Virus record (IMG/VR): IMGVR_UViG_3300042896_000241
Location: 1-22,611 of that record
DNA: 22,611 bases
Origin: a virus
Reading direction: 5' to 3' (one strand)
This document shows, piece by piece, positions 1 to 19,093 of the stretch. The position numbers and the translations under genes are program-made. Numbering within the stretch: position 1 is the first letter of the stretch; each line of letters opens with the position of its first letter. The notes under the pieces are model-generated. The model was not told the DNA's origin and did not search any database. It saw only the letters and a list, made by a program, of their open reading frames with translations.

Positions 1-121
1 CTAATGACGCAATTAATAACAGATTCTTAAACGCCCGTTGTACTGTGGGGTTAGTTGATGACATTGCAGTGTCAAATAGATCTGCAAACTTTTCTAAATC
101 AAATTCTTGTTCATCACTCAT
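1..121 (-). CDS. Hypothetical protein, 3' end beyond window
   Basis: The first 40 codons of a gene that runs off the left edge. It starts MSDEQEFDLEKF and its ATG overlaps the stop of the gene at 118-324 as ATGA. The last visible stretch, N-P-T-V-Q-R-A-F...L-L-L-I-A-S-L, resembles the C-terminal ends of the proteins at 424-849 (NPVVQKAY...LSLSK) and 6519-6998 (NPSVKKAY...CQLSK). It therefore probably ends just outside the window as a very small third member of that group. Function is unknown. Confidence 0.7.
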   Translation of the reverse strand, partial: MSDEQEFDLEKFADLFDTAMSSTNPTVQRAFKNLLLIASL

Positions 122-324
122 ACATCACTCCATCTTAAAATAAACCAGTCACGCTGGCTTTCTGTTTTAAACGACCAAAGTATTTCAGTCATCCGTTTTC
201 CAGTACCTTGTTCACTTTCAGCCCATTCATCGATTTCAGTCATGAGCAAATCAGTCATTGACTCTTTATCAAATACAACTCCCGGTAATCTAAACAGTCC
301 AACCTCACAAGTTTTAAATTTCAT
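118..324 (-). CDS. F-x-LRW family small protein (68 aa)
   Basis: Downstream-most visible member of the array. It has an acidic core around E-I-D-E-W-A (residues about 31-36) and ends W-F-I-L-R-W-S-D-V. The motif codons TTA AGA TGG AGT carry an AGATGGAG Shine-Dalgarno for the next gene, but the junction is displaced, so two extra residues follow LRWS before the TGA. The ATG overlaps the stop of the 36-codon ORF upstream (ATGA). Family membership is clear from the C-terminus; function is unknown. Confidence 0.8.
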   Translation of the reverse strand: MKFKTCEVGLFRLPGVVFDKESMTDLLMTEIDEWAESEQGTGKRMTEILWSFKTESQRDWFILRWSDV

Positions 325-431
325 AATTTCATTATCCGTTGTATTACCTCGTTGGCTTCTTTAAATCTAATGGTGAGTATCGGTTCCCAATTAGCATACG
401 CTTGAGTCCATCTTATCGTATACTTAACCAT
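321..431 (-). CDS. Very small hypothetical protein (36 aa)
   Basis: A short ORF filling the only gap in this part of the array. It begins MVKYTIRWTQAY, with its ATG inside the last codons of the gene at 424-849 (8-nt overlap). An AAAGG Shine-Dalgarno lies 5 nt upstream. The stop overlaps the next ATG as ATGA. It has no LRW C-terminus, although T-I-R-W occurs near its N-terminus. Overlap on both sides and the SD support it being translated. The small size and lack of known homologues keep confidence moderate. Confidence 0.55.
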   Translation of the reverse strand: MVKYTIRWTQAYANWEPILTIRFKEANEVIQRIMKL

Positions 432-849
432 TGCTGCCTTTTGATAAACTCAAAAGCATTTGATATTTTTCATATGCCTTTTGTACTACGGGATTACTAC
501 GTTGTTCCCACTTCTCTGCACGGTACCGTGCTTCATTTGCTAATGCTTCTCGTACCCAGCCAGGGCCTCGTACCTCAGTCTCTCGAGCAAATGCCTTGTA
601 ATCTCCGCGAGGGTCATCCACTTCAGATAATATCTCTAATAAGTCACTAAACTTATCTTCAGGCATGGAAATATCCACTGACTCTACTACATACGTGGTA
701 TGTGTTAAGTGTTGATCATAAAACGCAGGTGTACTTACCGTAGAGGTATCGTATCTATACATTGGATCTCGGCCTCGGGCCGTTCTTGCTTGATACTTAC
801 GGCAAAACTCGTCAATGTGTTTACTGTTTATTGTAACTTGTCTTTGCAT
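424..849 (-). CDS. Hypothetical phage protein with NPxV...LSK C-terminus
   Basis: A 141-residue soluble protein of unknown function, not an F-x-LRW member. Residues about 117-137 read N-P-V-V-Q-K-A-Y-E-K-Y...L-S-L-S-K, matching the ends of the proteins at 6519-6998 and 1-121. This C-terminal helix is a recurring end in phage hypothetical proteins. The start is set by the Shine-Dalgarno AGGTGG, which is part of the I-R-W-N codons ending the gene upstream, one base after that gene's TAA. It is inserted between F-x-LRW genes. Confidence 0.8.
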   Translation of the reverse strand: MQRQVTINSKHIDEFCRKYQARTARGRDPMYRYDTSTVSTPAFYDQHLTHTTYVVESVDISMPEDKFSDLLEILSEVDDPRGDYKAFARETEVRGPGWVREALANEARYRAEKWEQRSNPVVQKAYEKYQMLLSLSKGSNG

Positions 850-850
850 G

Positions 851-1246
851 TTAGTTCCACCTTATTGCAAAATATGTTGCGTATATTCCATGGCATTTCC
901 GAATCTTAATTGTTAATCGATTGTCGGTAATATTATTATCTTCAAATCGCCAGTTCCAATCCCATCGCTGCCGTCCAACTAACTGTTCAAGTAACGGGCG
1001 ATAGTGATCATTTGGATCTGAAGAAAGTAACTGAGCGTCTGTCTTATATTGATCAATGTGCTCTTTAATCACAGGGCCGTTTGGCCATTTTACTGTAATT
1101 GTATCAGTGGGCATAAATTTCCACCAAATAGCATCGAATAAATTTCCAGCACGTTTATGTATTTCCCATTTTGCCATTTGTTCCTCTGTTAAATATCGTG
1201 ACGGTTCATTGTGAAATCGTCGTGGTGGAGGGAGCAATTGTCCCAT
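851..1246 (-). CDS. F-x-LRW family protein with long N-terminus (131 aa)
   Basis: One of the longer members. It begins MGQLLPPPRRF and ends Y-F-A-I-R-W-N, with AGG TGG in the motif serving as SD for the next gene. The N-terminal half is rich in Trp and Pro (A-I-W-W-K-F, V-K-W-P-N-G-P), and a W-D-W-N-W-R-F-E segment precedes the C-terminus. The usual W-C core is not obvious. The ATG lies 1 nt after the TAG of the gene upstream, whose L-K-W-A codons give only a weak SD. Function is unknown. Confidence 0.8.
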   Translation of the reverse strand: MGQLLPPPRRFHNEPSRYLTEEQMAKWEIHKRAGNLFDAIWWKFMPTDTITVKWPNGPVIKEHIDQYKTDAQLLSSDPNDHYRPLLEQLVGRQRWDWNWRFEDNNITDNRLTIKIRKCHGIYATYFAIRWN

Positions 1247-1247
1247 C

Positions 1248-1502
1248 CTAAGCCCACTTCAAAGCAACCCAAGTTGCATCCTGTGGATGTTCAAACCACC
1301 AAACTTGACTAGCGTGATAATTATAAAATTTACCAGTTGACTTTTGTCGTTGGCACCATTGCTTAATCTCTGCATCATCATAAAATTCTGGAAACCAAGC
1401 GTGTGCGCCGTTTGGCAAAACTGATCTAGCTTTCCTCTGTGTAAGGGTTACTTGAGTCCAGCAACGCTTCCTGATTTCTTTATCTTTATTCCAATACTTC
1501 AT
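1248..1502 (-). CDS. F-x-LRW family small protein (84 aa, LKWA end)
   Basis: The N-terminal third is basic (MKYWNKDKEIRKRCW). The core is D-D-A-E-I-K-Q-W-C-Q-R-Q and the end is D-A-T-W-V-A-L-K-W-A. Arg of the motif is Lys here (AAG TGG), which weakens the embedded Shine-Dalgarno. The ATG lies inside the upstream gene (17-nt overlap), directly after AGGTGGAGTC from that gene's R-W-S codons but in another reading frame. Function is unknown. Confidence 0.82.
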   Translation of the reverse strand: MKYWNKDKEIRKRCWTQVTLTQRKARSVLPNGAHAWFPEFYDDAEIKQWCQRQKSTGKFYNYHASQVWWFEHPQDATWVALKWA

Positions 1503-1677
1503 GACTCCACCTCAACATAAACCAAGAATGGTCCTCTTCATTTTTAAAGTAGTAACCACTCAAGTCAACATTCCATCTATCAGATACTGGTCCAAATTGA
1601 TCATGACACCATTGATCTATTTCATATGCAGGATCGTCACCTTTGTAAGATCCTTTGACATAATAATTGTAGCTCAT
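1486..1677 (-). CDS. F-x-LRW family small protein (63 aa, tailed motif)
   Basis: Begins MSYNYYVKG; the ATG overlaps the upstream TGA (ATGA). An in-frame GTG two codons upstream lies inside the SD and is rejected. The core E-I-D-Q-W-C-H-D-Q-F-G-P-V-S-D-R-W is one of the clearest in the array. LRWS is followed by H-E-V-L-E, because the downstream ATG is out of frame with the stop. The AGGTGG still sits just before that ATG, so the motif's position follows the next start codon rather than this protein's own end. Confidence 0.82.
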   Translation of the reverse strand: MSYNYYVKGSYKGDDPAYEIDQWCHDQFGPVSDRWNVDLSGYYFKNEEDHSWFMLRWSHEVLE

Positions 1678-1955
1678 GTACACCACCGCATTCTAAACAT
1701 AGTTGCATGTTTGGGGTATTTGAATACAAACTTCTTTTCGCAATCAGATGATCCCCCGTGCTGTAGAGTGCAAGCATAGTTGCCAGACCCCAGCACCTCC
1801 TTGCACCAACTCACAATTTCCCAATACTGCACGGTATTTTCATTGCGCTCTTCTCGTGACTGATTCCAAGTATAAACTCCAACATTCACAATCTTTAATG
1901 CATCAACATTAACTGGAGTCCATCCATGTTTTCTAATTAGTTGTCTAGTTTTCAT
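1674..1955 (-). CDS. F-x-LRW family small protein (93 aa)
   Basis: Begins MKTRQLIRKHGW. This ATG overlaps the upstream TGA and follows GAGATGG; the ATG 9 nt further upstream lies inside that SD and was not used. The core is W-E-I-V-S-W-C-K-E-V-L-G-S-G. The end is H-A-T-M-F-R-M-R-W-C-T with codons CGG TGG TGT ACA, so GGTGG remains upstream of the next ATG although Arg uses CGG. Function is unknown. Confidence 0.82.
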   Translation of the reverse strand: MKTRQLIRKHGWTPVNVDALKIVNVGVYTWNQSREERNENTVQYWEIVSWCKEVLGSGNYACTLQHGGSSDCEKKFVFKYPKHATMFRMRWCT

Positions 1956-2215
1956 GTTATCCATCTCAGTCTAAATAGTGTGGCGTCTTTATCTCTTACA
2001 AAATACATATACCCTGGCCAACCACCGGCTTGGTAGTAGGTATCGGGCTTACACGTTTTGTAACACCACGCATGCATTTCATTAATTTGTGCATCGTAGT
2101 AGTTTTCTAAACTAACCCTATACGGCATTATAACACGTTTAAGCCCGTAGTCAACAATTAATGAGCTAATGGGGATCGGCTTTTTCTTCTTCGGTTTATG
2201 GGTTGGCTTCTTCAT
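1952..2215 (-). CDS. F-x-LRW family small protein, Lys-rich N-terminus (87 aa)
   Basis: Begins MKKPTHKPKKKKPIP. The ATG overlaps the upstream TGA after GCGGTGGCC. The first 12 residues are strongly basic, unlike the neighbours. The core is I-N-E-M-H-A-W-C-Y-K-T-C, followed by Y-F-V-R-D-K-D-A-T-L-F-R-L-R-W-I-T. The basic head could bind nucleic acid or a charged partner, but that is only a guess from composition. Confidence 0.82.
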   Translation of the reverse strand: MKKPTHKPKKKKPIPISSLIVDYGLKRVIMPYRVSLENYYDAQINEMHAWCYKTCKPDTYYQAGGWPGYMYFVRDKDATLFRLRWIT

Positions 2216-2436
2216 GGCCACCGCAACGAACAAAATATTGCGTGTTTTTCTTCCTTGAACCACACATTAATATACCCAAGCGATTTATATTGAATATTAT
2301 ATTGAGAATTATCCCATCCCACTAGTTGTTCAATCCATTCTCGCATCTTAGTTACTTCAGCCAACCGAGATTCAATATCAAAGACATCAGTTGTTTGTAA
2401 CTTAATAGTGGATTTGAAATTTAGATCATCAATCAT
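2212..2436 (-). CDS. F-x-LRW family small protein (74 aa, LRWP end)
   Basis: Begins MIDDLNFKSTIKLQ. The ATG overlaps the upstream TGA and follows TTGAGGTGGTC, the typical array junction. The core is M-R-E-W-I-E-Q-L-V-G-W-D-N. The end is V-W-F-K-E-E-K-H-A-I-F-C-S-L-R-W-P with codons CGG TGG CCA. Cys of the W-C core is replaced by Ile. Function is unknown. Confidence 0.82.
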   Translation of the reverse strand: MIDDLNFKSTIKLQTTDVFDIESRLAEVTKMREWIEQLVGWDNSQYNIQYKSLGYINVWFKEEKHAIFCSLRWP

Positions 2437-2792
2437 GACCACCTCAAGACAAACCAAACATAATCTTTCTCATCGCGGAAACGAAATAGTGAATTATTAT
2501 TGTTAGTCCACCGTGACCAAGCATCAGCATTCTTATCCTGATTACCAAACTGCGTTGTACACCAGTCGCGTACCTCGTTCATTGTATGCCCGGTGTGAAA
2601 CAAGTCAGCAACATACCACTTGGCACGGCTGAAATTATATTTCTTGTAGAACTTAACAATGTTAGGGTCTAGGTGTTTGAATTTAAGACTGAATATTAGG
2701 CTAGGACGAGCAGCCATTGGCTGTACTCTGCATAGTTCCTGTGCGATTAACCCTGGGGTTACATTTCGTATCATCTGTAATGTTTTATTCAT
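2433..2792 (-). CDS. F-x-LRW family protein with extended N-terminus (119 aa)
   Basis: Begins MNKTLQMIRNV at the ATG overlapping the upstream TGA. The in-frame GTG two codons upstream lies inside the Shine-Dalgarno and is not a plausible start. About 45 residues precede the family-like part. The core is M-N-E-V-R-D-W-C-T-T-Q-F-G-N-Q and the end R-D-E-K-D-Y-V-W-F-V-L-R-W-S. The TTG AGG TGG TCA TGA end is a textbook example of the motif doubling as SD. Confidence 0.84.
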   Translation of the reverse strand: MNKTLQMIRNVTPGLIAQELCRVQPMAARPSLIFSLKFKHLDPNIVKFYKKYNFSRAKWYVADLFHTGHTMNEVRDWCTTQFGNQDKNADAWSRWTNNNNSLFRFRDEKDYVWFVLRWS

Positions 2793-3007
2793 GACCACCT
2801 CAGTTTAAACCAGTTTGCGCACTTTTCTTCTTTAAATTGATAGCATGCTATCTCGTCCCATATAGGACTGCTATCACTGACATCAGTTACAAAATATCCT
2901 ATGTAACTAGCGCAATTGGCTTGAGCCCACTTGTCGATACCTTCAAAGTAAATGTCATTTTGATAGTAGTCGGTACTCTTCGCGTCAGTAATCAATACAT
3001 CAATCAT
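2789..3007 (-). CDS. F-x-LRW family small protein (72 aa)
   Basis: Begins MIDVLITDAKST; the ATG overlaps the upstream TGA after TTGAGGTGGAC. The core is F-E-G-I-D-K-W-A-Q-A-N-C, with Ala at the usual Cys position and Cys four residues after Trp. The end is F-K-E-E-K-C-A-N-W-F-K-L-R-W-S, encoded CTG AGG TGG TCA TGA. The protein is acidic overall. Function is unknown. Confidence 0.83.
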   Translation of the reverse strand: MIDVLITDAKSTDYYQNDIYFEGIDKWAQANCASYIGYFVTDVSDSSPIWDEIACYQFKEEKCANWFKLRWS

Positions 3008-3237
3008 GTCCACCTCAATACAAATAGAATTGCATCTTTTTCATTTTGAAACTTAATATTACCGTAGCAGATGTTATTGAACCAGCGCGGTACTTTTACT
3101 TGATCTTCCCAATGCCAATCGATACCGTATGATTGGCGGCACCAGTCATATACTTCTCGGGCCCACGTTGTACCGGGTTGCCTGGGAAATGTGGTAATCC
3201 AATATCCATCTGCATCTTGATGTGTACTAACTTTCAT
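3004..3237 (-). CDS. F-x-LRW family small protein (77 aa)
   Basis: Begins MKVSTHQDADGYW; the ATG overlaps the upstream TGA. The core R-E-V-Y-D-W-C-R-Q-S-Y-G-I-D-W-H-W is followed by I-K-F-Q-N-E-K-D-A-I-L-F-V-L-R-W-T. The last codons TTG AGG TGG ACA TGA give the SD for the next gene. The SD in front of this gene is degenerate (AAGTGGGCGAC) because the upstream protein ends LKWAT. Function is unknown. Confidence 0.83.
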   Translation of the reverse strand: MKVSTHQDADGYWITTFPRQPGTTWAREVYDWCRQSYGIDWHWEDQVKVPRWFNNICYGNIKFQNEKDAILFVLRWT

Positions 3238-3494
3238 GTCGCCCACTTCAATAAGAACAATGTCAAATCTTTTTCATTTAAAAGGTACACCTCACCCCAC
3301 AAGATGTCATCAACCCATCTTGGAGAATTTTGTCCCATTCCTGTGAGAGTCCCAGACTTTCCGAAGACAGAAGTGCACCATACTCGCATCTCAGTTCGTA
3401 TATCTACCTCGGACACTAATGCCTTCCCCCATGCATTAAATACAGCGACATAGTATCTATCCCCGGTCATTTGACGGTAGTGCTGAATCTTCAT
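3234..3494 (-). CDS. F-x-LRW family small protein (86 aa, LKWAT end)
   Basis: Begins MKIQHYRQMTGDRYY; the ATG overlaps the TGA of the unrelated coiled-coil gene upstream, so its SD is only a weak CTGGA. The core is T-E-M-R-V-W-C-T-S-V-F-G-K-S-G-T. The end is L-N-E-K-D-L-T-L-F-L-L-K-W-A-T with Lys for Arg. This is the point where the array resumes after the non-family gene at 3491-3928. Confidence 0.82.
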   Translation of the reverse strand: MKIQHYRQMTGDRYYVAVFNAWGKALVSEVDIRTEMRVWCTSVFGKSGTLTGMGQNSPRWVDDILWGEVYLLNEKDLTLFLLKWAT

Positions 3495-3928
3495 GTGTAT
3501 CCAGTGGGTTTCTCGCAAAGTGTAGACCACATCTTAAGCTTTTTCTGGGCATCGACCCGCTGTTCATTTGCAGTGTGAAGTTCACGTCGGATCAATCGGT
3601 TGTCATCGTCTGCAGATTTGATTTGCTCTCGTAATTCAGACAATAGGTCCACTACTGTGCGAGCTTTTAATCTATGTGCTTCAGATTGTGCATCCAATAA
3701 TTCATTGTTTAAATACTCAATCTCATTATTTAAATTATGGAGGTATTCACTTATACTATAGCAGTTGTCAAAGCAGAAATCTTCAGGATCAGCACCAGCA
3801 CAGATTAAATCACTTAGTACGTCAGCATGCGGCGTTTGCATCTTAACTAATCGTAAAATTAGCGGGTCATCGCTAAATTTTTCAAGATAGTCCAATAGTT
3901 CAATATCTGATAATAAATTAGTATTCAT
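3491..3928 (-). CDS. Coiled-coil hypothetical protein interrupting the array (145 aa)
   Basis: Begins MNTNLLSDIELLDYLEKF; the ATG overlaps the upstream TGA after TTGAGGTGGTC, so a family-type ribosome-binding site drives a non-family protein. Residues about 60-135 look like a long amphipathic coiled coil (repeated L-N-N-E, L-L-S-E-L-R-E-Q-I-K, R-R-E-L-H-T-A-N-E-Q-R). The N-terminal S-D-D-P-L-I-L-R-L-V resembles heads of other phage coiled-coil proteins as I remember them. There is no LRW end. It is probably oligomeric; function is unknown. Confidence 0.82.
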   Translation of the reverse strand: MNTNLLSDIELLDYLEKFSDDPLILRLVKMQTPHADVLSDLICAGADPEDFCFDNCYSISEYLHNLNNEIEYLNNELLDAQSEAHRLKARTVVDLLSELREQIKSADDDNRLIRRELHTANEQRVDAQKKLKMWSTLCEKPTGYT

Positions 3929-4164
3929 GACCACCTCAATATAAAAAATGTTGCATCTCTGTCGTTCTTAAACGATACATACTTTTTAAACCCTTCATCT
4001 TCACTATAAAACTTTCCACCGTATTTTGCTAATTCTGCGTTTCTCACAGAATGATAATCGACAAGGTAATCTGGTACTACTTTCCAGACACTGTGCGAAA
4101 ATTTATTCCACCAAGCTGGCGATTTAGCAGGTGATTCTAGATCACATACTATAAAGTTAATCAT
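3925..4164 (-). CDS. F-x-LRW family small protein (79 aa)
   Basis: Begins MINFIVCDLESPAKSP at the ATG overlapping the upstream TGA; the GTG two codons upstream lies inside the SD and is rejected. The core is divergent (P-A-W-W-N-K-F-S-H-S-V-W-K-V-V-P). The end Y-V-S-F-K-N-D-R-D-A-T-F-F-I-L-R-W-S is typical, encoded TTG AGG TGG TCA TGA. Function is unknown. Confidence 0.83.
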   Translation of the reverse strand: MINFIVCDLESPAKSPAWWNKFSHSVWKVVPDYLVDYHSVRNAELAKYGGKFYSEDEGFKKYVSFKNDRDATFFILRWS

Positions 4165-4370
4165 GACCACCTCAACATAAACCAGTTATATTCTTTTTCG
4201 TCTTTAAAGAAAATTTTATCTCCGTTGAATCGTTCAATCTTTAATCCGAACTCTTCTCTCCATCTCTCTTTTTCCTGCGACCAAGTATCTATCATATGCC
4301 GTTTCTTATCAAGAAACTCGATTGCATGACTTACAGCTTCTGATATATCATTCATGTAAACAATTTTCAT
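4161..4370 (-). CDS. F-x-LRW family small protein (69 aa)
   Basis: Begins MKIVYMNDISEAV. The ATG overlaps the upstream TGA after TTGAGATGGTC, and the reading frame stays open upstream only by chance within the neighbour. The middle is helical and charged (F-L-D-K-K-R-H-M-I-D-T-W-S-Q-E-K-E-R-W-R-E-E-F-G). The end F-F-K-D-E-K-E-Y-N-W-F-M-L-R-W-S is almost identical to the end of the protein at 4806-5228, a sign of a fairly recent duplication or conversion. Confidence 0.83.
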   Translation of the reverse strand: MKIVYMNDISEAVSHAIEFLDKKRHMIDTWSQEKERWREEFGLKIERFNGDKIFFKDEKEYNWFMLRWS

Positions 4371-4618
4371 GACCATCTCAATATAAAAAATGTACGCATG
4401 CTGGCTTTGGTAAAATAAAACTTGTTGCGCATTTGCTTCCATCCAGTTACTGGATTCTCGCCCCATATGTCAGATGGCCCGAAGGTGTTAGTGCACCATT
4501 CTGCAACGTCGGTATGCCAGTGGTAGCCTCGAGGATCAGTAGCCCACATTTCATCTGTTATGTCCGATAATTCTGCAATGTAATAGTCAACTCCGTCGAA
4601 GCTAAGTTCAATATTCAT
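4367..4618 (-). CDS. F-x-LRW family small protein (83 aa)
   Basis: Begins MNIELSFDGVDYYIAEL; the ATG overlaps the upstream TGA after TTGAGGTGGTC. The core T-D-V-A-E-W-C-T-N-T-F-G-P-S-D-I-W-G is canonical. The end F-T-K-A-S-M-R-T-F-F-I-L-R-W-S uses AGA for Arg. Function is unknown. Confidence 0.83.
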   Translation of the reverse strand: MNIELSFDGVDYYIAELSDITDEMWATDPRGYHWHTDVAEWCTNTFGPSDIWGENPVTGWKQMRNKFYFTKASMRTFFILRWS

Positions 4619-4806
4619 GACCACCTCAATAAAAACAGCGTCTTATCACGCGCTTTATTAAACGCAAAGCATTTGTCGATGTATTCCCAGTCTACGGCAC
4701 ATTCACCAATTGATGCTGAACACCAATTGCTTAAATCTCTCCAATCGCCATTCCACCAATTGCCAGTTCGGGGATACTGTACTCTGAAAGGAAATTTGTT
4801 ATTCAT
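4615..4806 (-). CDS. F-x-LRW family small protein (63 aa)
   Basis: Begins MNNKFPFRVQYP. The ATG overlaps the upstream TAA by one base (TAATG) after TTGAGGTGGAGT, a variant of the usual ATGA junction. The core is W-R-D-L-S-N-W-C-S-A-S-I-G-E and the end N-K-A-R-D-K-T-L-F-L-L-R-W-S. This is one of the most compact complete members and helps define the minimal family fold. Function is unknown. Confidence 0.83.
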   Translation of the reverse strand: MNNKFPFRVQYPRTGNWWNGDWRDLSNWCSASIGECAVDWEYIDKCFAFNKARDKTLFLLRWS

Positions 4807-5228
4807 TAACTCCACCTCAATAAAAACCAGTTGTACTCTTTTTCATCCTTAAAGGCAAAGAACAAATGATCGCCCCCGCCTATCTCATTAAAGCGCCACT
4901 CGTTAAAATGTGGTTCGTTAAACACACGGTGTATATCAGCTCGATGTTTGTGCTTACAATTCTTCTTACACCAATCAATTATATCGTGGTAACCGTACCG
5001 ATAGCCTCCTGGACCGTTATCATAGAGTAGCGAGTGTGCATAGTGTGAAGGTTCTTCGATACAATAAACATATGGATAGCCGTGATAATAATCTGTTACT
5101 CGACTTGCAGGTTTAAATATATCCTCATCAAATCTGTGACGATACTGATCCCAGTTCTCGCAACCATGTTTCTTTAGGAAGCGAGCATCCTTCCAAGATT
5201 TGTAGTGTAGTTTAAGCTTGGTTAACAT
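4806..5228 (-). CDS. F-x-LRW family protein, longest member (140 aa)
   Basis: Begins MLTKLKLHYKSWKDARF, 1 nt after the upstream TAA; an in-frame extension upstream lies inside the neighbour and lacks an SD. About 90 residues of aromatic-rich sequence (D-Y-Y-H-G-Y-P-Y-V-Y-C-I) precede the family part: Y-H-D-I-I-D-W-C-K-K-N-C, then F-A-F-K-D-E-K-E-Y-N-W-F-L-L-R-W-S. I recall similar full-length proteins in other large phages, so this may be the ancestral long form. That is memory, not a search. Confidence 0.83.
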   Translation of the reverse strand: MLTKLKLHYKSWKDARFLKKHGCENWDQYRHRFDEDIFKPASRVTDYYHGYPYVYCIEEPSHYAHSLLYDNGPGGYRYGYHDIIDWCKKNCKHKHRADIHRVFNEPHFNEWRFNEIGGGDHLFFAFKDEKEYNWFLLRWS

Positions 5229-5229
5229 A

Positions 5230-5403
5230 TTAACCCCACGCTGTAAGAAATAGGGTTGCATCTCGATCTTTTCGGAATTCAACATACGCAAGCCCAATCA
5301 ATTTCCAACGATCACCGCTTGGTCCAAAGGTATTATATAACCAGATGATTATCTCGCCACCTACTATGCCGTCTTTTAAATTTCCAAGATCTACAGTAAT
5401 CAT
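5230..5403 (-). CDS. F-x-LRW family small protein with decayed motif (57 aa)
   Basis: Begins MITVDLGNLKDGIVG at the ATG overlapping the upstream TGA. It is the smallest array member. The core I-I-I-W-L-Y-N-T-F-G-P-S-G-D-R-W is well kept, but the C-terminus reads R-D-A-T-L-F-L-T-A-W-G, so L-R-W is lost. The SD in front of the next gene is correspondingly only GTGGGG-like. Decay of the protein motif and of the RBS go together here. Confidence 0.75.
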   Translation of the reverse strand: MITVDLGNLKDGIVGGEIIIWLYNTFGPSGDRWKLIGLAYVEFRKDRDATLFLTAWG

Positions 5404-5690
5404 GAACAGACCCATGCTAATTGAAATAACATTGCTTCTTTCTCGTTAGTAATCCGAGTTATGTACATTGGATTGCCGCTATTAAATTTACGGGTAATGC
5501 TAGCAGTTGGGCAACTACAACCCATCCATTCTTCAAATGCGCGATTATCATTTGGGTAAGCCCAGCAATACCACCCTTTGGGTAGCCCATTGCTAAATCC
5601 GGTAGGATACAACTGATACAAGTGTTTGGGAGTGGGCTCAGGTTCACCAGTTTCATATTTCCAATAACTTATATGAACTTTTAAGACCAT
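5400..5690 (-). CDS. F-x-LRW family protein with divergent end (96 aa)
   Basis: Begins MVLKVHISYWKYETGEPEP; this ATG overlaps the upstream stop by 10 nt. The ORF stays open further upstream within the neighbour, but no SD supports that. The core F-E-E-W-M-G-C-S-C-P-T-A-S replaces W-C-x3-F-G. The end is N-E-K-E-A-M-L-F-Q-L-A-W-V-C-S, with Ala for Arg. Pro-rich segment around residues 17-25. Start is moderately sure; function is unknown. Confidence 0.7.
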   Translation of the reverse strand: MVLKVHISYWKYETGEPEPTPKHLYQLYPTGFSNGLPKGWYCWAYPNDNRAFEEWMGCSCPTASITRKFNSGNPMYITRITNEKEAMLFQLAWVCS

Positions 5691-6040
5691 TTTATTACCA
5701 ATATAGTTAGAAGCTTTTCGTGGATATCGAATACCCCTTGTTGATGCCTCGCTTGTCGGTGGTGCTCGTACCAGTATTTGGTGGGCTGAGTGCGAACCCA
5801 CTCGCTAGCTTCGGAACTACACCGAATAGTAGTCCAATATGCATCATCAACTAGCGCACTATCGTATGTGATATAAGTGAATGGCGGTTCTTTTGGCGGC
5901 ATTCCAAATTGGGGTTTGCCTACGTTGAGGCTGTAAGCAACGTGCGCCAACTCAGAGCCAGCACCACGACTAAAAGTCAAGTTCTCTAAGTTGTATTGGA
6001 TCTGTGATCGTTTCGCTAATGAGGTAGAGTTTGTCTGCAT
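5681..6040 (-). CDS. F-x-LRW family protein, start uncertain (up to 119 aa)
   Basis: The C-terminal part is family-like: E-A-S-E-W-V-R-T-Q, then L-L-T-I-L-V-I-K-W-S. The farthest ATG (6040) overlaps the upstream gene by 71 nt and follows that gene's L-K-Y codons, as a family start should. An internal ATG near 5902 would give 73 residues, closer to the usual size. Neither has a strong Shine-Dalgarno. The annotated extent uses the longer form and is uncertain by about 46 codons. Confidence 0.6.
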   Translation of the reverse strand: MQTNSTSLAKRSQIQYNLENLTFSRGAGSELAHVAYSLNVGKPQFGMPPKEPPFTYITYDSALVDDAYWTTIRCSSEASEWVRTQPTKYWYEHHRQARHQQGVFDIHEKLLTILVIKWS

Positions 6041-6242
6041 ACTTTAATTGTAGCATAGTTACCTGTTTTTCACAAGTGGTTTTAATTCTAATGCTACGCC
6101 CTGTTGGCACTTTAACTTCTTGATTGCGTGCGTGATGAACTGTGTTATACAGCACCTCAACCTCAAGCTCCACACCCAATCCCCTGCACCAGATGTAGTC
6201 GATTTCGTTAAAATCATTGTGTGCCAATGCCCATGTACTCAC
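5970..6242 (-). CDS. F-x-LRW family protein with read-through C-terminus (90 aa)
   Basis: The best start is GTG at 6242, whose GTGA overlaps the upstream stop after AGATGGGC; an ATG two codons upstream lies inside that SD. The core is I-D-Y-I-W-C-R-G-L-G. The family end is recognisable as T-M-L-Q-L-K-Y-A (Trp replaced by Tyr). Translation then continues about 21 more residues to a distant stop, overlapping the next gene by 71 nt. It looks like a member that lost its stop codon. Confidence 0.65.
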   Translation of the reverse strand: MSTWALAHNDFNEIDYIWCRGLGVELEVEVLYNTVHHARNQEVKVPTGRSIRIKTTCEKQVTMLQLKYADKLYLISETITDPIQLRELDF

Positions 6243-6526
6243 GCCCATCTTAGTACGAACATAGTCCTGTCCGATTCCTTTTTAAACCAGTACTTTCGAT
6301 TACTGCCAGTCCACCGGCGTTCGATATTAGTGCCGCCCCAACTTGCTGGTCCCATTACATCGGTGAGCCAATCATCCATACCAGCATATTCGAACCGATC
6401 ATAGTTATCAGGTTGTGCCCAATACGTAAAAATCGGTTGAGTATCTGAAATTCCTAATATGATAGTTTTAGCACACATCAATATGGATTTGTTAATTAGC
6501 AAGTCGACCTCTAACACCCTATTCAT
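6239..6526 (-). CDS. F-x-LRW family protein, first gene of the array (95 aa)
   Basis: Begins MNRVLEVDLLINKSI; the ATG overlaps the end of the upstream gene by 8 nt and follows GAGCAGGGCA. The core is G-M-D-D-W-L-T-D-V-M-G-P-A-S-W-G-G. The end K-K-E-S-D-R-T-M-F-V-L-R-W-A is encoded TTA AGA TGG GCG TGA. This is the promoter-proximal end of the array, so it should be translated first. Function is unknown. Confidence 0.8.
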   Translation of the reverse strand: MNRVLEVDLLINKSILMCAKTIILGISDTQPIFTYWAQPDNYDRFEYAGMDDWLTDVMGPASWGGTNIERRWTGSNRKYWFKKESDRTMFVLRWA

Positions 6527-8169: not shown

Positions 8170-8416
8170 CGTTTGGCCCTATAATTTTAAGGTTAGTGTA
8201 TGTTGCTTTACGCTGGTATGTTTCAAATGCTAATTCAGTATCATGCAGTGTGCGATAACGACCAACTAGGCAGTCCTCCCACAGCCAAATATTACCAGTG
8301 ATCTTGTAAGGTTTGACTATTTTGCGGTTCTTGACATGAATCGTGGTTTGTTCTACTATTCCCTGCCTAATATCCTTTGCGTGGCTTGCTTCTGCTTTGG
8401 ATCTAGCATTACTCAT
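8162..8416 (-). CDS. Hypothetical basic protein (84 aa)
   Basis: Begins MSNARSKAEASHAKD; the ATG overlaps the upstream TGA, with GAGGA 7 nt before it. The protein is basic. The second half (N-I-W-L-W-E-D-C-L-V-G-R-Y-R-T-L-H-D-T-E) looks beta-rich. I do not recognise the family. Cotranslated with the L12-like gene downstream. Confidence 0.78.
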   Translation of the reverse strand: MSNARSKAEASHAKDIRQGIVEQTTIHVKNRKIVKPYKITGNIWLWEDCLVGRYRTLHDTELAFETYQRKATYTNLKIIGPNDE

Positions 8417-8682
8417 AGGCGATCCTCGTTAGGGGATTCTTTTGGTAATCCAAAATGTTCTGTTAGAATCTTTGCACACGATTCGGCAGTTAATGCATTT
8501 GATGGAAAGTTAAATTGCCTAAGCTGGTTGCCGTGTGCCTCCAACAGTCTTGCACATTCGCTAATGAGCAGTTCAGTGTACTGTGTAAGAAGTACACGCT
8601 CGTAGATATGTGGTTGACTCTCGGCAACTATGTCAGCCAATGTTCTTGCTTCTTGTAGTAACGGTATGCTATTTTGATTCAT
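8413..8682 (-). CDS. HFGV family small protein (89 aa)
   Basis: Begins MNQNSIPLLQEARTLA. The upstream ATG (8700) is excluded because it is 2 nt from the -10 box, before the predicted transcript start; the chosen ATG follows AAAGGGC. It shows the family pattern: helix, L-L-I-S-E-C-A-R-L-L around the middle, and A-K-I-L-T-E-H-F-G-L near the end. A 10-residue tail follows HFG, so this copy does not use the motif as the next gene's SD. Function is unknown. Confidence 0.8.
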   Translation of the reverse strand: MNQNSIPLLQEARTLADIVAESQPHIYERVLLTQYTELLISECARLLEAHGNQLRQFNFPSNALTAESCAKILTEHFGLPKESPNEDRL

Positions 8683-8702
8683 TAACTGCCCTTTATACAT
8701 TA

Positions 8703-9159: not shown

Positions 9160-9476
9160 ATTTTGAATGTCGCCCAAAAGGCAGTCTTTGACAGGTCCTT
9201 TTCAAACTCAGGATACACGTCGTTTAACTTAGTACTATCAATAGAACGGTAGCCATCCTGTTCCTTTTTGTCGTGCATACGCCTCATGGAATACGGTGAG
9301 TCGGTAAAGACTTTTGTTTGTAGCTTTTTACCGCGCCTACCCCAAAACGAGACGTAGCTACAACTGTCACTGTCCCATTGGTCGCTGTCGGGTTCGCTAA
9401 GACATATAATGCCCCACACTTTGTCAGCATTTTCAGCCTCTACGCGTTTCCATCCAATAAATTCATAGCGAATCAT
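9156..9476 (-). CDS. WGR-like domain protein (106 aa)
   Basis: Residues about 18-106 (K-V-W-G-I-I-C-L..., Y-V-S-F-W-G-R-R-G-K-K-L-Q-T-K, D-G-Y-R-S-I, Y-P-E-F-E-K-D-L...W-A-T) follow the order of a WGR domain. There the W-G-R-x-G turn is followed by a helix and a G-Y strand. WGR domains bind nucleic acids and occur in PARPs and in bacterial and phage proteins. The ATG overlaps the upstream TGA. The domain call rests on the WGRRG motif and general layout. Confidence 0.65.
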   Translation of the reverse strand: MIRYEFIGWKRVEAENADKVWGIICLSEPDSDQWDSDSCSYVSFWGRRGKKLQTKVFTDSPYSMRRMHDKKEQDGYRSIDSTKLNDVYPEFEKDLSKTAFWATFKI

Positions 9477-9688
9477 GATATATTGTTAATTCCAAAATGT
9501 TCTTTGAACAGATCAGCCACTGGGCGAGTCCAGAAATCGCTATTTTCCGCAGCGGTGGCTAGTATGGCACATTCGTTGATTAGCAACTCAGCGAATCTTT
9601 CCTTGTCAAAACTACCAGCGTCTGGATCACCTGGCCAACACGCTTGCCAAGTACACTGTTTCATCAATTCTTTAAGTCGTGTGTTCAT
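9473..9688 (-). CDS. HFGV family small protein (71 aa)
   Basis: Two adjacent ATGs exist. The second (9688) gives MNTRLKELM, matching the family's usual MN-x-R-[IL]-x-E-L start, and it has the better distance to GGGA. The pattern continues with E-R-F-A-E-L-L-I-N-E-C-A-I-L and ends K-E-H-F-G-I-N-N-I-S. The six residues after HFG put its GGA about 13 nt from the next ATG, so this copy is a poor SD donor. Function is unknown. Confidence 0.8.
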   Translation of the reverse strand: MNTRLKELMKQCTWQACWPGDPDAGSFDKERFAELLINECAILATAAENSDFWTRPVADLFKEHFGINNIS

Positions 9689-9897
9689 CATCTGTCCCGG
9701 TAATCGTAATCATAATCGTCACCAATCTGTCGTTCTAAGCTATCAATTTTACTCTCGTATTGATCTTTGACCTTATCTAGCTCATCCTCTGCACTAGATA
9801 ATTGCTCTTGCAAGTAAGTCACTTGGCCACGCAACCCGTTAATTTCCTGGTTGAGTTCGTAGATTCGGTCGGCAGCTAATTCCTCATCGCTATTCAT
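9688..9897 (-). CDS. Small coiled-coil protein (69 aa)
   Basis: Nearly all of the protein is a heptad-rich coiled coil (residues about 10-57: I-Y-E-L-N-Q-E-I-N-G-L-R-G-Q-V-T-Y-L). It ends in an acidic tyrosine tail with repeated D-Y-D-Y. The ATG overlaps the TGA of the gene upstream, after GGAGTAACAGG. Likely an oligomeric adaptor; function is unknown. Confidence 0.8.
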   Translation of the reverse strand: MNSDEELAADRIYELNQEINGLRGQVTYLQEQLSSAEDELDKVKDQYESKIDSLERQIGDDYDYDYRDR

Positions 9898-10070
9898 CCT
9901 GTTACTCCAAAATAATCTTTAATATGAGTGGCCAAACTTTGGCTCATATACGGTGCTGCCGTTTCACAAATTTCAAGTATGAGCAATTCAGCCAGTCGTT
10001 GAGCCCGCGGCGCAATCTCTGGCGCTGCATAACCCGCTTCCAGCATCAGTTCTTTAATTCGGTTGTTCAT
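9894..10070 (-). CDS. HFGV family small protein (58 aa)
   Basis: A short ORF filling the gap between two ATGA junctions. Begins MNNRIKELMLEAGYAAPEI, then R-L-A-E-L-L-I-L-E-I-C-E-T-A, and ends I-K-D-Y-F-G-V-T-G. It is a complete, compact family member. The G-V codons GGA GTA place GGAG 7 nt before the next gene's ATG. The perfect fit in both overlaps and the family match make it a convincing gene despite its size. Confidence 0.85.
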   Translation of the reverse strand: MNNRIKELMLEAGYAAPEIAPRAQRLAELLILEICETAAPYMSQSLATHIKDYFGVTG

Positions 10071-10503: not shown

Positions 10504-10731
10504 CTAAATAGGGTTACTGCGCCAGGTAGTGATTCCATCTTCTTCGCCGTAGCCCATTTGTTCACCAACATAGTCACCCGGGTACTGGCAGTCTTCTGCC
10601 ATATCAGCAGCATCAGCACATTTACGGACAATCAATGCTGCGAATTTTTCTTGGTCAACTCGCACGAAGTATCCAGTGGCAGCGTCAAATACGCTAGCTT
10701 GATCCAGTAATTTTTTGATAATAGCATTCAT
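10504..10731 (-). CDS. HFGV family protein that has lost its end (75 aa)
   Basis: Begins MNAIIKKLLDQASVFDA and carries the central E-K-F-A-A-L-I-V-R-K-C-A-D-A-A, clearly of the HFGV family. The C-terminus is instead Y-G-E-E-D-G-I-T-T-W-R-S-N-P-I. Consistent with the loss, the next gene has its own SD (TAGGAG) after the stop. The start overlaps the upstream TAA (TAATG), with GGAG from the upstream HFGV codons 7 nt before it. Confidence 0.78.
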   Translation of the reverse strand: MNAIIKKLLDQASVFDAATGYFVRVDQEKFAALIVRKCADAADMAEDCQYPGDYVGEQMGYGEEDGITTWRSNPI

Positions 10732-10949
10732 TATTTCACTCCGAAATGTTGTTTGGTCCGACGATTTACTTCTTCTACGCCAGAAATATATCCCTCAAAC
10801 CATGGTCCTTGGCCAGCAGCGTTTGCTACATCTTCACTCACTGCCATACATTCCAACACAATCAACTCGGCAAATTTGTCCATATAAGTTTCAGGTGAGT
10901 CACACGTTGCCCAAGCCAAGTCTTTGAGTTCACCAATACGTGAGTTCAT
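10731..10949 (-). CDS. HFGV family small protein (72 aa)
   Basis: Begins MNSRIGELKDLAWATCD; an ATG four codons upstream lies in the neighbour's HFGM codons and is rejected. Family pattern: M-D-K-F-A-E-L-I-V-L-E-C-M-A-V, ending T-K-Q-H-F-G-V-K. GGA GTG AAA TAA TG at the end supplies GGAG 7 nt before the next ATG. Function is unknown. Confidence 0.83.
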   Translation of the reverse strand: MNSRIGELKDLAWATCDSPETYMDKFAELIVLECMAVSEDVANAAGQGPWFEGYISGVEEVNRRTKQHFGVK

Positions 10950-10950
10950 G

Positions 10951-11154
10951 CTACATTCCAAAATGTTGTGCGATCAATTCTTCGGGACTTTCCAACGTAT
11001 TACACGCAGAATCAGTACACGCAATAGCGCATTGTGCCATGATCTTTTGTGTAAACACCATCATTGTTTCATCATCAAAAACAAACATGTTGTCTTTGAT
11101 GGCGTTGCACTCCACGAGTGCAAGGTTCAAAATATCAGTATTTGCGTTTTTCAT
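10951..11154 (-). CDS. HFGV family small protein, possibly leaderless mRNA (67 aa)
   Basis: Begins MKNANTDILNLALVECN; the mid-region M-V-F-T-Q-K-I-M-A-Q-C-A-I-A and the end E-E-L-I-A-Q-H-F-G-M place it in the HFGV family. The -10 box of the promoter upstream ends 6 nt before the ATG, so transcription should begin at or next to the A of the start codon. No SD is present. Its GGA codon lies 7 nt before the next gene's ATG. Confidence 0.82.
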   Translation of the reverse strand: MKNANTDILNLALVECNAIKDNMFVFDDETMMVFTQKIMAQCAIACTDSACNTLESPEELIAQHFGM

Positions 11155-11455: not shown

Positions 11456-12880
11456 TTAAATATTACTGTTAGCTCTAACTTGATCGAACGTCTGTGTAAA
11501 GTAAATTACACCGTCGTCAAAGTATGTTTCCAAACAATCTCTCCAATCGCCGACCCCTTTGTCGGTCCAATTGCGTGGGGCATCTACAGCAGTTTGGTAT
11601 TCACCACCACTTTCCCACAGTGTAACACGCCCTTTCTTGGATGCCTTACCTGGGTCAGTGATCGGGTCCTTAAACACATCACGCCATACCACGGTAGTAC
11701 GACCGTCAACATCGACCTCTTCACGAACGCCAATTGAAGAACACTTCATGGCAAACTTCAACGTGTCACGGTCCAATTGCTGCAACAGTCCACCGCCCAT
11801 ACCAAACGCAAAGTTGTCTGCACTGTAGCCGTGAAAGTCAACCATAGTGCGAAGGATAGTTTCAAGTGATTGAGCGTTAATACCGTCGCCCCAAATTACT
11901 CGCACATTGTTCAACAGTTTGTAGCCCTTGGCGTTCTTCGGTGCACCGTACAGCTTTTCCAGGATGTACATCATCTTAGGAATAACTTCAATCGGATCAC
12001 CCGAGTCTGGCCGGATCACAACAGTTGCACCACTTGCAATCACTTCATCTTTAAGTTCAGTTCCCCACAGTTTACAGGCATTGTAAATGTCATAGCTGTC
12101 GGAAACGACTGCAAGAGTGGCCCCGGGCCGACCGAAAGATACAAGCATGTTTCTGTAGGCATCGACTTCGTTGTCTCGTCCCCAACTTGTGATGGTGCTG
12201 TGTTCACTTGCTGGGATACTAAATCCGCAGACATCACCGCCGTAAGTATCCATAATATGAAGCACACCCGACATAGTATCAGTGCCCATGAAATTAACAA
12301 GGTGCGCGGCGCCGCCCAGTCCGGCGCTTTCCATGGAAGAAACACCGCGAGCACCAAAGTCGTGCAGTTTAAAGCTAATTGTAGAAGGGTCACCAGATTT
12401 CTCCAAATATTTAAGAATAAATTGTTTCATGTCCCATGACATTGTTCCTACAGTCGTCGGGTACCAAATTGCCCGAAGTGCAGGCGTTTCGACCCATGTC
12501 GTAAGCCATGGCACTTTAGGGTCAGTGTTCTCGATCGTGCATAGAACGTTTTTTGTTGGGATAATGAGACCTTCCTTAGCCGCTCTAATACGGATCGGGA
12601 GTCTACCTCCATGCACATCCAGAATGTACTGCCATCCTGCACGGTTGAAAGGTTCTCCGTGCGCTGTCCAGATTTTATCTGCATAGTCGATTTGTTCCTG
12701 TGTGATAGGGGTCGCAAGATATTGCGCAAGTGCTTGAACGCCGAGGAATTCGGTTTCAGCATATTTGCCACCACGTGACTCAATGTAAGAGTACACGTAT
12801 TCAGTCCCTGGGGGATATTGACAGCTCATGCTAACTTTATAACTATCTGTATCCAATATAATACTATTTAATTTGCTCAT
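11456..12880 (-). CDS. nadV: Nicotinamide phosphoribosyltransferase (NAMPT/NadV)
   Basis: A 474-residue, full-length enzyme that makes nicotinamide mononucleotide from nicotinamide and PRPP, the first step of NAD+ salvage. Diagnostic motifs: H-D-F-G-A-R-G-V-S-S (173-182), H-L-V-N-F-M-G-T-D-T (193-202), the catalytic histidine region P-A-S-E-H-S-T-I (His227), R-P-D-S-G-D-P (290-296, phosphoribosyl binding) and F-G-M-G-G-G-L-L-Q (359-367). No key residue is missing. It pairs functionally with the NMN adenylyltransferase at 18064-19092, though the two are in separate operons with similar leaders. Known phage NAMPT/NMNAT pairs rebuild NAD+ depleted by host defences. The start follows AAAGGA held in a leader hairpin. 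Confidence 0.97.
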   Translation of the reverse strand: MSKLNSIILDTDSYKVSMSCQYPPGTEYVYSYIESRGGKYAETEFLGVQALAQYLATPITQEQIDYADKIWTAHGEPFNRAGWQYILDVHGGRLPIRIRAAKEGLIIPTKNVLCTIENTDPKVPWLTTWVETPALRAIWYPTTVGTMSWDMKQFILKYLEKSGDPSTISFKLHDFGARGVSSMESAGLGGAAHLVNFMGTDTMSGVLHIMDTYGGDVCGFSIPASEHSTITSWGRDNEVDAYRNMLVSFGRPGATLAVVSDSYDIYNACKLWGTELKDEVIASGATVVIRPDSGDPIEVIPKMMYILEKLYGAPKNAKGYKLLNNVRVIWGDGINAQSLETILRTMVDFHGYSADNFAFGMGGGLLQQLDRDTLKFAMKCSSIGVREEVDVDGRTTVVWRDVFKDPITDPGKASKKGRVTLWESGGEYQTAVDAPRNWTDKGVGDWRDCLETYFDDGVIYFTQTFDQVRANSNI

Positions 12881-12968: not shown

Positions 12969-12997
12969 ATTATACAATAAGTAGCATCATGAGTCAA
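12969..12997 (-). promoter_or_regulatory. nadV promoter TTGACT-17-TATAAT
   Basis: TTGACT, 17 bp, TATAAT, reading leftward into nadV. The -35 box is formed by the reverse complement of codons 2 and 3 (AGT CAA) of the rightward endonuclease gene, and that gene's ATG lies in the spacer. The two oppositely directed genes therefore share the same base pairs for start codon and promoter. Confidence 0.83.
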
Positions 12998-13915
12998 CAG
13001 GTTATAACAAAGTTTCAAAAAGTGCATGGCGATAAGTTCGACTATTCGAAAGTATCGTATAGCACAGCCAAAACCAAGATAGTCGTTATATGTAAAATAC
13101 ACGGCGACTTCTTGATTACTCCGAACAACCATCTTTCTGGTTACGGTTGTCCAAAATGCAGAGGGCGAGGATTTACTGATCAAGAAAAACTTGAAAGGTT
13201 TATCGATGCCGGAAATGCAATTCATAATAACAAATACGATTATTCTAAAGTTAATATGTCTGATGTTAAATTAAATATTGCCTGCCCAATACACGGTAAT
13301 TTCCTTCAATTGTACCGAGCGCATATTACTAATAAATCTGGATGTTTGCAGTGTGGATATGAAAGCAATAGCCAAATGGCGCGTTTGGGAAAAGATGCCT
13401 TTGTAGAGAAAGCTAATACTGCTCACAATAACAAATACACTTACGATAATGTAGTTTATGAAGGTGCTCATAAAAAAGTTAGCATAACATGTCCTACCCA
13501 TGGAGATTTTAGCGTTACTCCGGCCAATCATTGGAGCAACGGCGTTGGCTGCCCGTCGTGTTTTAACAGTAATCCTAGCAAGGGAGAAGTTAAAATACAT
13601 GAGTGGTTGATTAAACATAATATACCATTTGAGTTTCAAAAATCTTTTCCTGATTTATATTACAAATCTAAGAAGGGCCGCCTTAAGTATGATTTTTATA
13701 TCACGCATCTAAACTTGTTAATTGAGTTTGATGGTGAATATCATTATTCACCAATATCGTTTTCAAAATTAATATCAGGTACTGATCAATTGGCTCTTAC
13801 ACAAATTCGTGATAATCTTAAAACCGAGTACGCAAAAAAGAATGATTATAAACTTTTACGAATACGATTTGATGATAACGTGATTGGGGTATTAGAGAGC
13901 AAAGTTGACATATAA
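12989..13915 (+). CDS. Freestanding homing-type endonuclease with DUF723-like repeats
   Basis: The only rightward gene (308 aa). Three repeats (about 1-60, 69-125, 136-195) each read H-x-N-K-Y-D-Y-S-K-V, then C-P-x-H-G-[DN]-F, then G-C-x-x-C, as in zinc-binding DNA-recognition modules of phage endonucleases. Residues 198-308 look like a Vsr/PD-(D/E)XK-type nuclease: G-E-V-K-I-H-E-W-L, Y-D-F-Y-I (235-239), L-I-E-F-D-G-E-Y-H-Y (244-253), K-T-E-Y-A-K-K-N and L-L-R-I-R-F. It is AT-rich relative to nadV and lies between two copies of one leader. It probably cuts phage DNA lacking the insertion. No good SD is seen. Confidence 0.9.
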   Translation: MSQQVITKFQKVHGDKFDYSKVSYSTAKTKIVVICKIHGDFLITPNNHLSGYGCPKCRGRGFTDQEKLERFIDAGNAIHNNKYDYSKVNMSDVKLNIACPIHGNFLQLYRAHITNKSGCLQCGYESNSQMARLGKDAFVEKANTAHNNKYTYDNVVYEGAHKKVSITCPTHGDFSVTPANHWSNGVGCPSCFNSNPSKGEVKIHEWLIKHNIPFEFQKSFPDLYYKSKKGRLKYDFYITHLNLLIEFDGEYHYSPISFSKLISGTDQLALTQIRDNLKTEYAKKNDYKLLRIRFDDNVIGVLESKVDI

Positions 13916-14269: not shown

Positions 14270-14746
14270 TCACGCAAACTCCACAACAGTAACAGATCCG
14301 CCGCCTTCGGTAATAATTCGACTGAAGTCTTCCAGCATAGTCATAATTCGAACTGGATCACCACCGGCCAGGCCCATGCCAATTAGTGGAAATCCGAATC
14401 GTTTGTCCTTGTACAAGTATGCAAACTTCTGAAGAATCAAGGCGAAGCTTGCATATTCAAAAACATCTTCATTGGCACCACCGCGATTGAATCCGTATTG
14501 TGTATAAGCGTTTGCAATTACGAATTTTGGATCTTTAAGATCGTTTACCGCAAGAGTATAGCTGCCCAGCTTTGTATAATCGCCTGATGATGTCGTTGCA
14601 TCAGCAGCGTATGCGGTTGGATACTGTTCTCGGATCTGCTTCGCGACCCCGCTGCCCATAGTACACCAGCAATTCGCGCCATGAACTATAATATCAAACT
14701 CACCTTGTTCTGCTAGTTTAAGCAGATCACCTTTAACTAAAATCAT
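14270..14746 (-). CDS. Macro domain protein (ADP-ribose binding/hydrolase)
   Basis: A single macro domain of 158 residues. Signature segments are I-I-V-H-G-A-N-C (19-26), M-G-S-G-V-A-K-Q-I (30-38), K-L-G-S-Y-T, V-I-A-N-A-Y-T-Q-Y (76-84) and F-P-L-I-G-M-G-L-A-G-G-D (119-130). Relatives bind ADP-ribose and may hydrolyse ADP-ribose-1''-phosphate or remove ADP-ribose from macromolecules. In a phage with NAD+ salvage it could process ADP-ribose released by host NADases or reverse ADP-ribosylation (inference). The ATG overlaps the upstream TGA, with AAGGAG 6 nt before it. Confidence 0.93.
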   Translation of the reverse strand: MILVKGDLLKLAEQGEFDIIVHGANCWCTMGSGVAKQIREQYPTAYAADATTSSGDYTKLGSYTLAVNDLKDPKFVIANAYTQYGFNRGGANEDVFEYASFALILQKFAYLYKDKRFGFPLIGMGLAGGDPVRIMTMLEDFSRIITEGGGSVTVVEFA

Positions 14747-16222: not shown

Positions 16223-16525
16223 TTAATCTCCAAAGGAAACTGTGATGTCAGTTTTAATGGTCATTGCATCAATGGCAAATACCTTAAACGGCTTACTATT
16301 GCTATATTTGCTTTCCTTTTCTTGCTTGACCCAAGCGGCAACTTCTTCTTTTGTTTTGAATCCGCGTATGCTGACATAAGTCGATGTTTCCATTGAAGGA
16401 GGTGGATCTGGCGGGCCATAGTCCGCACCCATATGACTCTCAATGTATTCTTGAACTACTATAAAGTTTGGCGAGTGCTTATCAAAGTCAGCAAGCCTGC
16501 TAATACTATTTCCAATATAACTCAT
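16223..16525 (-). CDS. Hypothetical protein (100 aa)
   Basis: Begins MSYIGNSISRLADFDKHS; the ATG overlaps the upstream TGA after GGAGTAACACC from the HFGV codons. A Pro-rich segment G-P-P-D-P-P-P-S (residues about 37-44) splits an N-terminal helix from a strand-helix-strand part (Y-V-S-I-R-G-F-K-T-K-E-E-V-A-A-W-V, F-K-V-F-A-I-D-A-M). No known family. Confidence 0.8.
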   Translation of the reverse strand: MSYIGNSISRLADFDKHSPNFIVVQEYIESHMGADYGPPDPPPSMETSTYVSIRGFKTKEEVAAWVKQEKESKYSNSKPFKVFAIDAMTIKTDITVSFGD

Positions 16526-16740
16526 GGTGTTACTCCAAAATGGTGTTTAATCATCCCTGACATTTTACCGTCTCCGTTCCACGAACTAACCTCAGCACAT
16601 TCCTGAACAATCAACTCAGCGAACGTTTTATTGAACAGCGTTTCGTAAAATGCTGCGTCCCCTTTATCCCACAGTGCTTGGTATTCTGCATTAGCTAGTG
16701 ACTTGGCTTTGCTAACTAATTCGTTAATTCTCTCGTTCAT
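16522..16740 (-). CDS. HFGV family small protein (72 aa)
   Basis: Begins MNERINELVSKAKSLAN, then F-A-E-L-I-V-Q-E-C-A-E-V and M-I-K-H-H-F-G-V-T-P. It is a canonical family member away from the 8-11 kb cluster. GGA GTA ACA CCA TGA places GGAG 7 nt before the next ATG. Its own start overlaps the upstream TGA, with AGGTG before it. Function is unknown. Confidence 0.84.
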   Translation of the reverse strand: MNERINELVSKAKSLANAEYQALWDKGDAAFYETLFNKTFAELIVQECAEVSSWNGDGKMSGMIKHHFGVTP

Positions 16741-19092: not shown

Positions 19093-19093
19093 A

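Follow-up and report, generated by a model that had tools for sequence, protein, structure and literature searches.

What keeps a short protein ending constant across an array of small phage genes: the protein that it closes, or the gene that follows? This question is raised by the IMG/VR virus record IMGVR_UViG_3300042896_000241, which in its entirety (22,611 bases) forms the window analysed here. Its minus strand carries, from 118 to 6526, an array of small open reading frames (ORFs) ending in F-x-L-R/K-W. A sequence-only reading of the window had proposed that the Leu-Arg-Trp (LRW) codons of this ending are also the ribosome-binding site (RBS) of the next gene, that the motif could be conserved wholly or partly as an RNA signal, and that each gene would be a cassette carrying the RBS for whatever follows. 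Our analysis leads us to conclude, with a probability that we put at roughly 0.87, that these C-terminal codons have a dual purpose: they encode the end of the protein and provide either the Shine-Dalgarno (SD) sequence or the ATG of the next gene, with the Arg kept partly for the neighbour.

A profile hidden Markov model (HMM) made from the homologues described below placed 17 ORFs of the array in one family at E<1e-4, with stops at 118, 1248, 1486, 1674, 1952, 2212, 2433, 2789, 3004, 3234, 3925, 4161, 4367, 4615, 4806, 5230, and 6239 (all on the minus strand). The gene with its stop at 5400 is a marginal member (E=0.15). The repeated sequence described at the stop/start overlaps is real. On the minus strand, TTGAGGTGGTCATGA occurs four times exactly (2433-2447, 3925-3939, 4161-4175, and 4615-4629) and eight times with at most two mismatches, compared to 0.05 copies expected from shuffles, and all copies lie at stop/start overlaps. 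The heptamer GAGGTGG has eight minus-strand copies, 8/8 at family stop/start joints; on both strands together there are nine, with 1.55 expected. At 2433-2447, the repeat comprises the LRWS codons and stop of ORF 2433-2798 as well as what appear to be the SD and ATG of the gene that follows (start near 2436), with 5 nt between the end of AGG and the ATG. The other exact copies end ORFs 3925-4170, whose next gene (3491-3934) is not a family member, 4161-4466 (possible start at 4379), and 4615-4815. Similar SD joints end ORF 2789-3013 (CTGAGGTGGTCATGA, 2789-2803) and ORF 3004-3246 (TTGAGGTGGACATGA, 3004-3018). AGG had been counted in nine of 15 Arg-containing members; the count is correct, but 851-1246 falls outside the family by HMM, leaving 8 of 14. 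AGG remains overrepresented at the motif: in the rest of the minus-strand genes counted, it makes up 23 of 303 Arg codons (Fisher p = 7e-6).

We scanned viral contigs with a DNA pattern and with protein patterns, some of the latter placed away from LRW, and recovered 1,098 distinct members at 237 viral loci. Between 4 and 29 copies, most of them in clusters, are present in each of ten large records (166-374 kb). Homology runs well upstream of the motif, with the consensus W...WC...FG...RW...F-F+DEKDA..F.LRW, and by their sequences the LRW-ending proteins are evidently a true homologous family. An AlphaFold2 model of the member at 3004-3237 (minus strand; input with 70 relatives) has a mean pLDDT of 88.6 and the order beta-beta-alpha-beta-beta-alpha. 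LRW closes the last helix of this model, and F-x-L-R/K-W is accordingly predicted to be the end of the C-terminal helix of the domain. Profile searches with 71 diverse members gave scattered weak matches in Pfam and PHROGs, none convincing, and none in the PDB. Fold searches returned nothing at E<=0.001 in the PDB and, in BFVD, best matches that were mainly uncharacterised proteins from uncultured Caudovirales phages. Relatives were found neither in bacterial genome contigs (one query) nor in a single-protein scan. Among 50,697 phage records there was no near nucleotide match to the window, and the named phages in this set gave neither a nucleotide nor a protein match. Neither the family nor a coding SD joint of standardised form is described in the literature covered, which leaves out most subscription papers.

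We sorted the homologues according to the next start, using one sequence per 60% identity cluster and taking the Arg position from the alignment, including members with F, Y, or C in place of Trp. The offset was counted in nucleotides from the start of the Arg codon to the ATG. Class A has the ATG of an ORF of at least 45 codons at offset 8-12; in class B the R/K-W codons (NNA-TGG) themselves contain the ATG, at offset 2; and class C has a start in neither place. Leu and Trp were retained in 96% and 95% of class A (n=433), 95% and 100% of class B (n=61), and 93-96% and 92-93% of class C (n=133). Arg was present in 374 class A members (86%), with AGG as 306 of the 374 codons (82%), compared to 71 class C members (53%), with AGG in 26 of 71 (37%). 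Class B contained Arg in 31 members (51%), Lys in 15, and no AGG. Classes A and C differed in the Arg residue (p=2e-14) and in AGG (p=8e-14), while the differences in Leu and Trp were not significant. The contrast between homologues with and without a following start, which the sequence-only reading had suggested examining, is therefore confined to Arg and its codon. That reading had also named L-R-W kept with non-SD codons, in members lacking a close neighbour, as evidence that would count against it; this is what we found for Leu and Trp, of which 92-96% were kept when no start lay in the SD window, in codings such as CTA-CGA-TGG. The preceding Phe behaved like Leu and Trp.

The spacing of the start mattered as well. 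AGG was used in 335/418 cases with the ATG at offset 8 and 107/121 at offsets 10-11, falling to 6/32 at 13-14, and the range in which AGG is frequent is that expected for an SD. The ATG offset is 8 for 483 members and 11 for 159, and most members have an ATGA or TAATG overlap. A first pass had given AGG in 450/574 cases with a near start and 6/47 with none in range; elsewhere in the same family proteins, AGG makes up 229 of 2,903 Arg codons (8%). When we compared column entropies between two classes, pooling members that lack a next gene with offset-2 members as the class without a near start, only the Arg column was clearly different (0.76 versus 2.02 bits), the other inspected columns being about equal. 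Since AGG and Arg follow the downstream start and its spacing, the codon choice and about one-third of the Arg conservation can be assigned to an RNA signal for the next gene. As Leu and Trp are unchanged without a start in the window, these are protein constraints. The motif codons do resemble an RBS for the following gene, and the proposal of conservation as an RNA signal stands for the Arg codon and the Arg residue, but not in its "wholly" form, given the retention of Leu, Trp, and Phe.

Since the DNA-pattern scan selects for AGG, we repeated the tests on loci found by protein pattern and on held-out loci. The class effect persisted among loci recovered through protein patterns alone and after removing the sites used as query. 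The held-out loci came from two further scans, minus sequences at least 80% identical to the first set. There, Arg was present in 171/197 class A members (AGG in 141/171) compared to 28/46 class C members (AGG in 14/28), with p=1.6e-4 for Arg and p=3.9e-4 for AGG; in class B, Arg was present in 14/32. Ortholog pairs compared between classes C and A split 65:3 for AGG and 40:4 for Arg. GTG and TTG starts in the 8-12 window resembled ATG (Arg in 26/27, 24 of them AGG). AGG was as frequent when the next gene belonged to the family (81%) as when it did not (82-84%), so its use is independent of the identity of the next gene.

The coding enriched at these joints is also well suited to pairing. Of 36 codings, TTG/CTG-AGG-TGG is calculated to pair most strongly with the anti-SD (duplex -14.1 kcal/mol), and where a start lies in the window TTG-AGG is 42-fold enriched. 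GAGGTG stands close before the ATG, within the 4-11 nt in which anti-SD complementarity is expected, and stop and start overlap as in an SD-led overlapping pair. Among family genes that begin at an ATGA overlap, 64% have an SD-like tetramer when they follow a family gene compared to 30% after a non-family ORF; strong SDs at ATGA pairs in the same loci occur in 56% after family genes and ~12-16% for non-family pairs. Other ORFs of these loci prefer AAGGA/AGGAG-type sites, so GAGGTG appears to be what an L-R-W reading permits. Phe, Leu, and Trp are kept for the protein, as the comparison shows; where a start lies at offset 8-12, the comparative pattern points to selection also for the synonymous choices TTG and AGG and for Arg over Lys, Thr, and other residues. 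The resulting xxG-AGG-TGG gives GAGGUG in the RNA, which can base-pair with the 16S rRNA 3' end and would probably bind the ribosome. In other members, R/K-W codons of the form NNA-TGG would supply the next ATG.

Conservation that spans the whole domain, well beyond LRW, and the retention of Phe, Leu, and Trp with or without a next gene would also suit an ending kept for the protein alone, AGG being a local codon bias. But AGG is rare elsewhere in the same proteins and tracks the spacing of the downstream ATG, the Arg residue itself drops when no start is in the window, and the ortholog pairs split heavily; contradicted by the offset dependence and by the replication in held-out loci, this is the least probable explanation, and we consider it scarcely credible. 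The strong form of the sequence-only reading, in which L-R-W results solely from SD encoding, would account for the AGG/TTG enrichment and its spacing dependence. It survives for Arg only: Leu and Trp persist with non-SD codons, and LRW closes a confidently predicted helix, making this explanation extremely unlikely. Gene order is highly variable, so the choice of insertion site could create part of the association if genes settle after members that already bear AGG, which would then mark tolerance of insertion rather than codon selection. Such settling requires AGG to be common before insertion, but neighbour-less members have much less of it, and both the ortholog pairs and the abrupt limit in offset speak for selection that acted once the genes were assembled; we view it as very unlikely.

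Some results weigh against dual-purpose codons. AGG still accounts for 37% of class C Arg codons (50% in the held-out loci), above the 8% background, which could stem from starts that were missed, from a neighbour lost only recently, or from some other constraint. In class A, about 18% of Arg codons differ from AGG, and an SD is not apparent in certain overlapping pairs (LSCV and LTCG ends), indicating that the SD is not indispensable. The comparison also takes its starts from ORFs and assumes that the host anti-SD is the usual CCUCC.

The cassette proposal gained support from gene order. We counted 485 direct family-to-family joints, and many ortholog groups had nearly as many distinct followers as joints (13/14, 9/9). 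Comparing related loci revealed 69 collapsed insertion/deletion events that carry a family gene, with both breakpoints at family stops in 33 and one in 35. Phages commonly show indels of gene size where genes meet, so what is distinctive here is the repeat and not the boundary. In two near-identical pairs of loci, a whole gene was gained or lost with breakpoints inside the repeated joint: L070 and L075 (flanks 98% and 98% identical) are distinguished by a single gene flanked by a 25-bp direct repeat with TTGAGGTGGTCATGA, and L231 and L216 (95/96% identical) by a single gene flanked by the 17-bp repeat TTGAGATGGGCATGAAA. Mean repeat length was 15.6 at indels and 10.3 at random joint pairs, a difference that is suggestive only, as it comes from seven partly redundant events. 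Shuffled order, whole-gene gain and loss at joints, and indifference of AGG to the follower's family all agree with a gene that carries an RBS for any follower. A standard joint at each gene end would start translation of whatever comes next, and whole genes could thus be gained, lost, and re-ordered without breaking expression, presumably to the advantage of the phage. More tentatively, and at not quite even odds, the joint may have three layers: protein C-terminus, translation signal for the next gene, and a 15-25 bp direct repeat by which recombination inserts and deletes whole genes. Such phages would maintain an evolvable set of exchangeable small genes, with any insert translated at once.

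Other joints of the array, all on the minus strand, depart from the standard form. At 4806-4820, TTGAGGTGGAGTTAA(TG) is an SD joint with a TAATG overlap and the ATG at offset 11. The joint at 4367-4381 (TTGAGATGGTCATGA) has AGA and a weaker SD, with in-frame ATGs at offsets 2 and 8; a CGG variant (TTGCGGTGGCCATGA, 2212-2226) ends ORF 2212-2457; and CTGAGATGGATAACATGA (1952-1969) offers ATGs at offset 2, within the R-W codons, and 11, in one reading frame. ORF 1486-1677, in which the motif was said to stay put relative to the next ATG while the protein gains a tail, contains TTGAGGTGG at 1507-1515 and does gain the tail SHEVLE; the distance is held to within 2 nt, at offset 10 rather than 8. 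Elsewhere the R/K-W codons would give the start: AGA-TGG (6246-6248) of ORF 6239-6526 to ORF 5970-6248, AAA-TGG (5688-5690) at the end of ORF 5681-6040 to the gene ending at 5400, and GCA-TGG (5413-5415) of that gene to ORF 5230-5415. LRW and SD decay together at 5230 and 5400, as had been noted, and at 5400 it is GCA-TGG that supplies the next ORF's ATG instead. A homologue at L055:6249-6507 (oriented strand) ends in FLLRM at an early TGA with TGAGGTGGTCATGA still before the next ATG; the RNA signal is retained and the protein Trp lost.

Some members have additional N-terminal pieces. In one ortholog group (window 2433-2798; L100, L226, L288-L295, L297, L112, L242), the LRW domain is preceded by a fused N-terminal arm of gp23, the T4-type major capsid protein; Pfam PF07068 matches this arm with E values of 3.6e-7 (window), 4.7e-12 (L297), and 8.5e-10 (L112). 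Possibly, this fusion is a capsid decoy or regulator. A P-loop-like piece (GRQTGKS) begins members at L259:2127-2609, L302:4761-5216, L307, L299, L318, L067:706-1080, and L202, in several cases ahead of the same KYxFSRAKWY domain as in the members with a gp23 arm; for L259 there is a weak match to terminase large subunit (PHROG E=0.0025). The N-terminal pieces of the family thus look interchangeable.

Outside the array, ORFs 11456-12880 and 18064-19212 read as nicotinamide phosphoribosyltransferase-like and as NMN adenylyltransferase plus NUDIX-like, respectively, and look like a phage NAD+ salvage pair; a macrodomain-like ORF (14270-14746) lies near these presumed NAD+ genes. A second paralogous set of small ORFs (MNxRI.EL...FAELI..EC..., often ending I..HFGV) is found at 8413-8700, 9473-9691, 9894-10070, 10504-10731, 10731-10961, 10951-11154, 16522-16740, and 20113-20313. 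On the plus strand, 12989-13915 has repeated CPxHG...GCPxC motifs and resembles a homing-type zinc-ribbon endonuclease; the gene set apart from it runs on the minus strand.

These joints provide a natural experiment in which selection on RNA and on protein is separated at single residues: among three adjacent residues of the motif, the protein constrains two, and the third is kept largely by the RBS of the following gene. The case cautions that, in compact genomes, conservation of a residue need not mean that it has a function in its own protein. The arrangement also points to a way in which phages could maintain expression of long, shuffled arrays of small accessory genes through successive rearrangements, and the protein family concerned is widespread and absent from the family libraries searched.

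How do these joints compare with known systems? In termination-dependent translational coupling, genes meet at ATGA or TAATG overlaps. The family joints share the four-base stop/start overlap and the SD within the upstream frame; ordinary coupling overlaps lack a conserved protein ending, whereas the family joints share one. T4-type phages reportedly undergo modular shuffling with mobile regulatory cassettes, in which short regulatory repeats between genes coincide with gene shuffling; these are said to be non-coding promoter or stem-loop elements. Here, too, repeats coincide with breakpoints of gene gain and loss, but the element is coding, made of the upstream ORF end and the next start. PMC2784483 (2009), citing Eyre-Walker 1996, describes how a gene that overlaps its neighbour or lies 1-4 nt from it has its SD within the final codons of that neighbour, whose 3' end is thereby constrained, as is the case here. 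The reported pattern is genome-wide and concerns unrelated gene pairs; here, one family has a standard version in a fixed place, and the amino-acid position shifts too, not just synonymous codons. Thus, an SD inside the upstream gene is known, and what is new is a joint standardised across a whole protein family.

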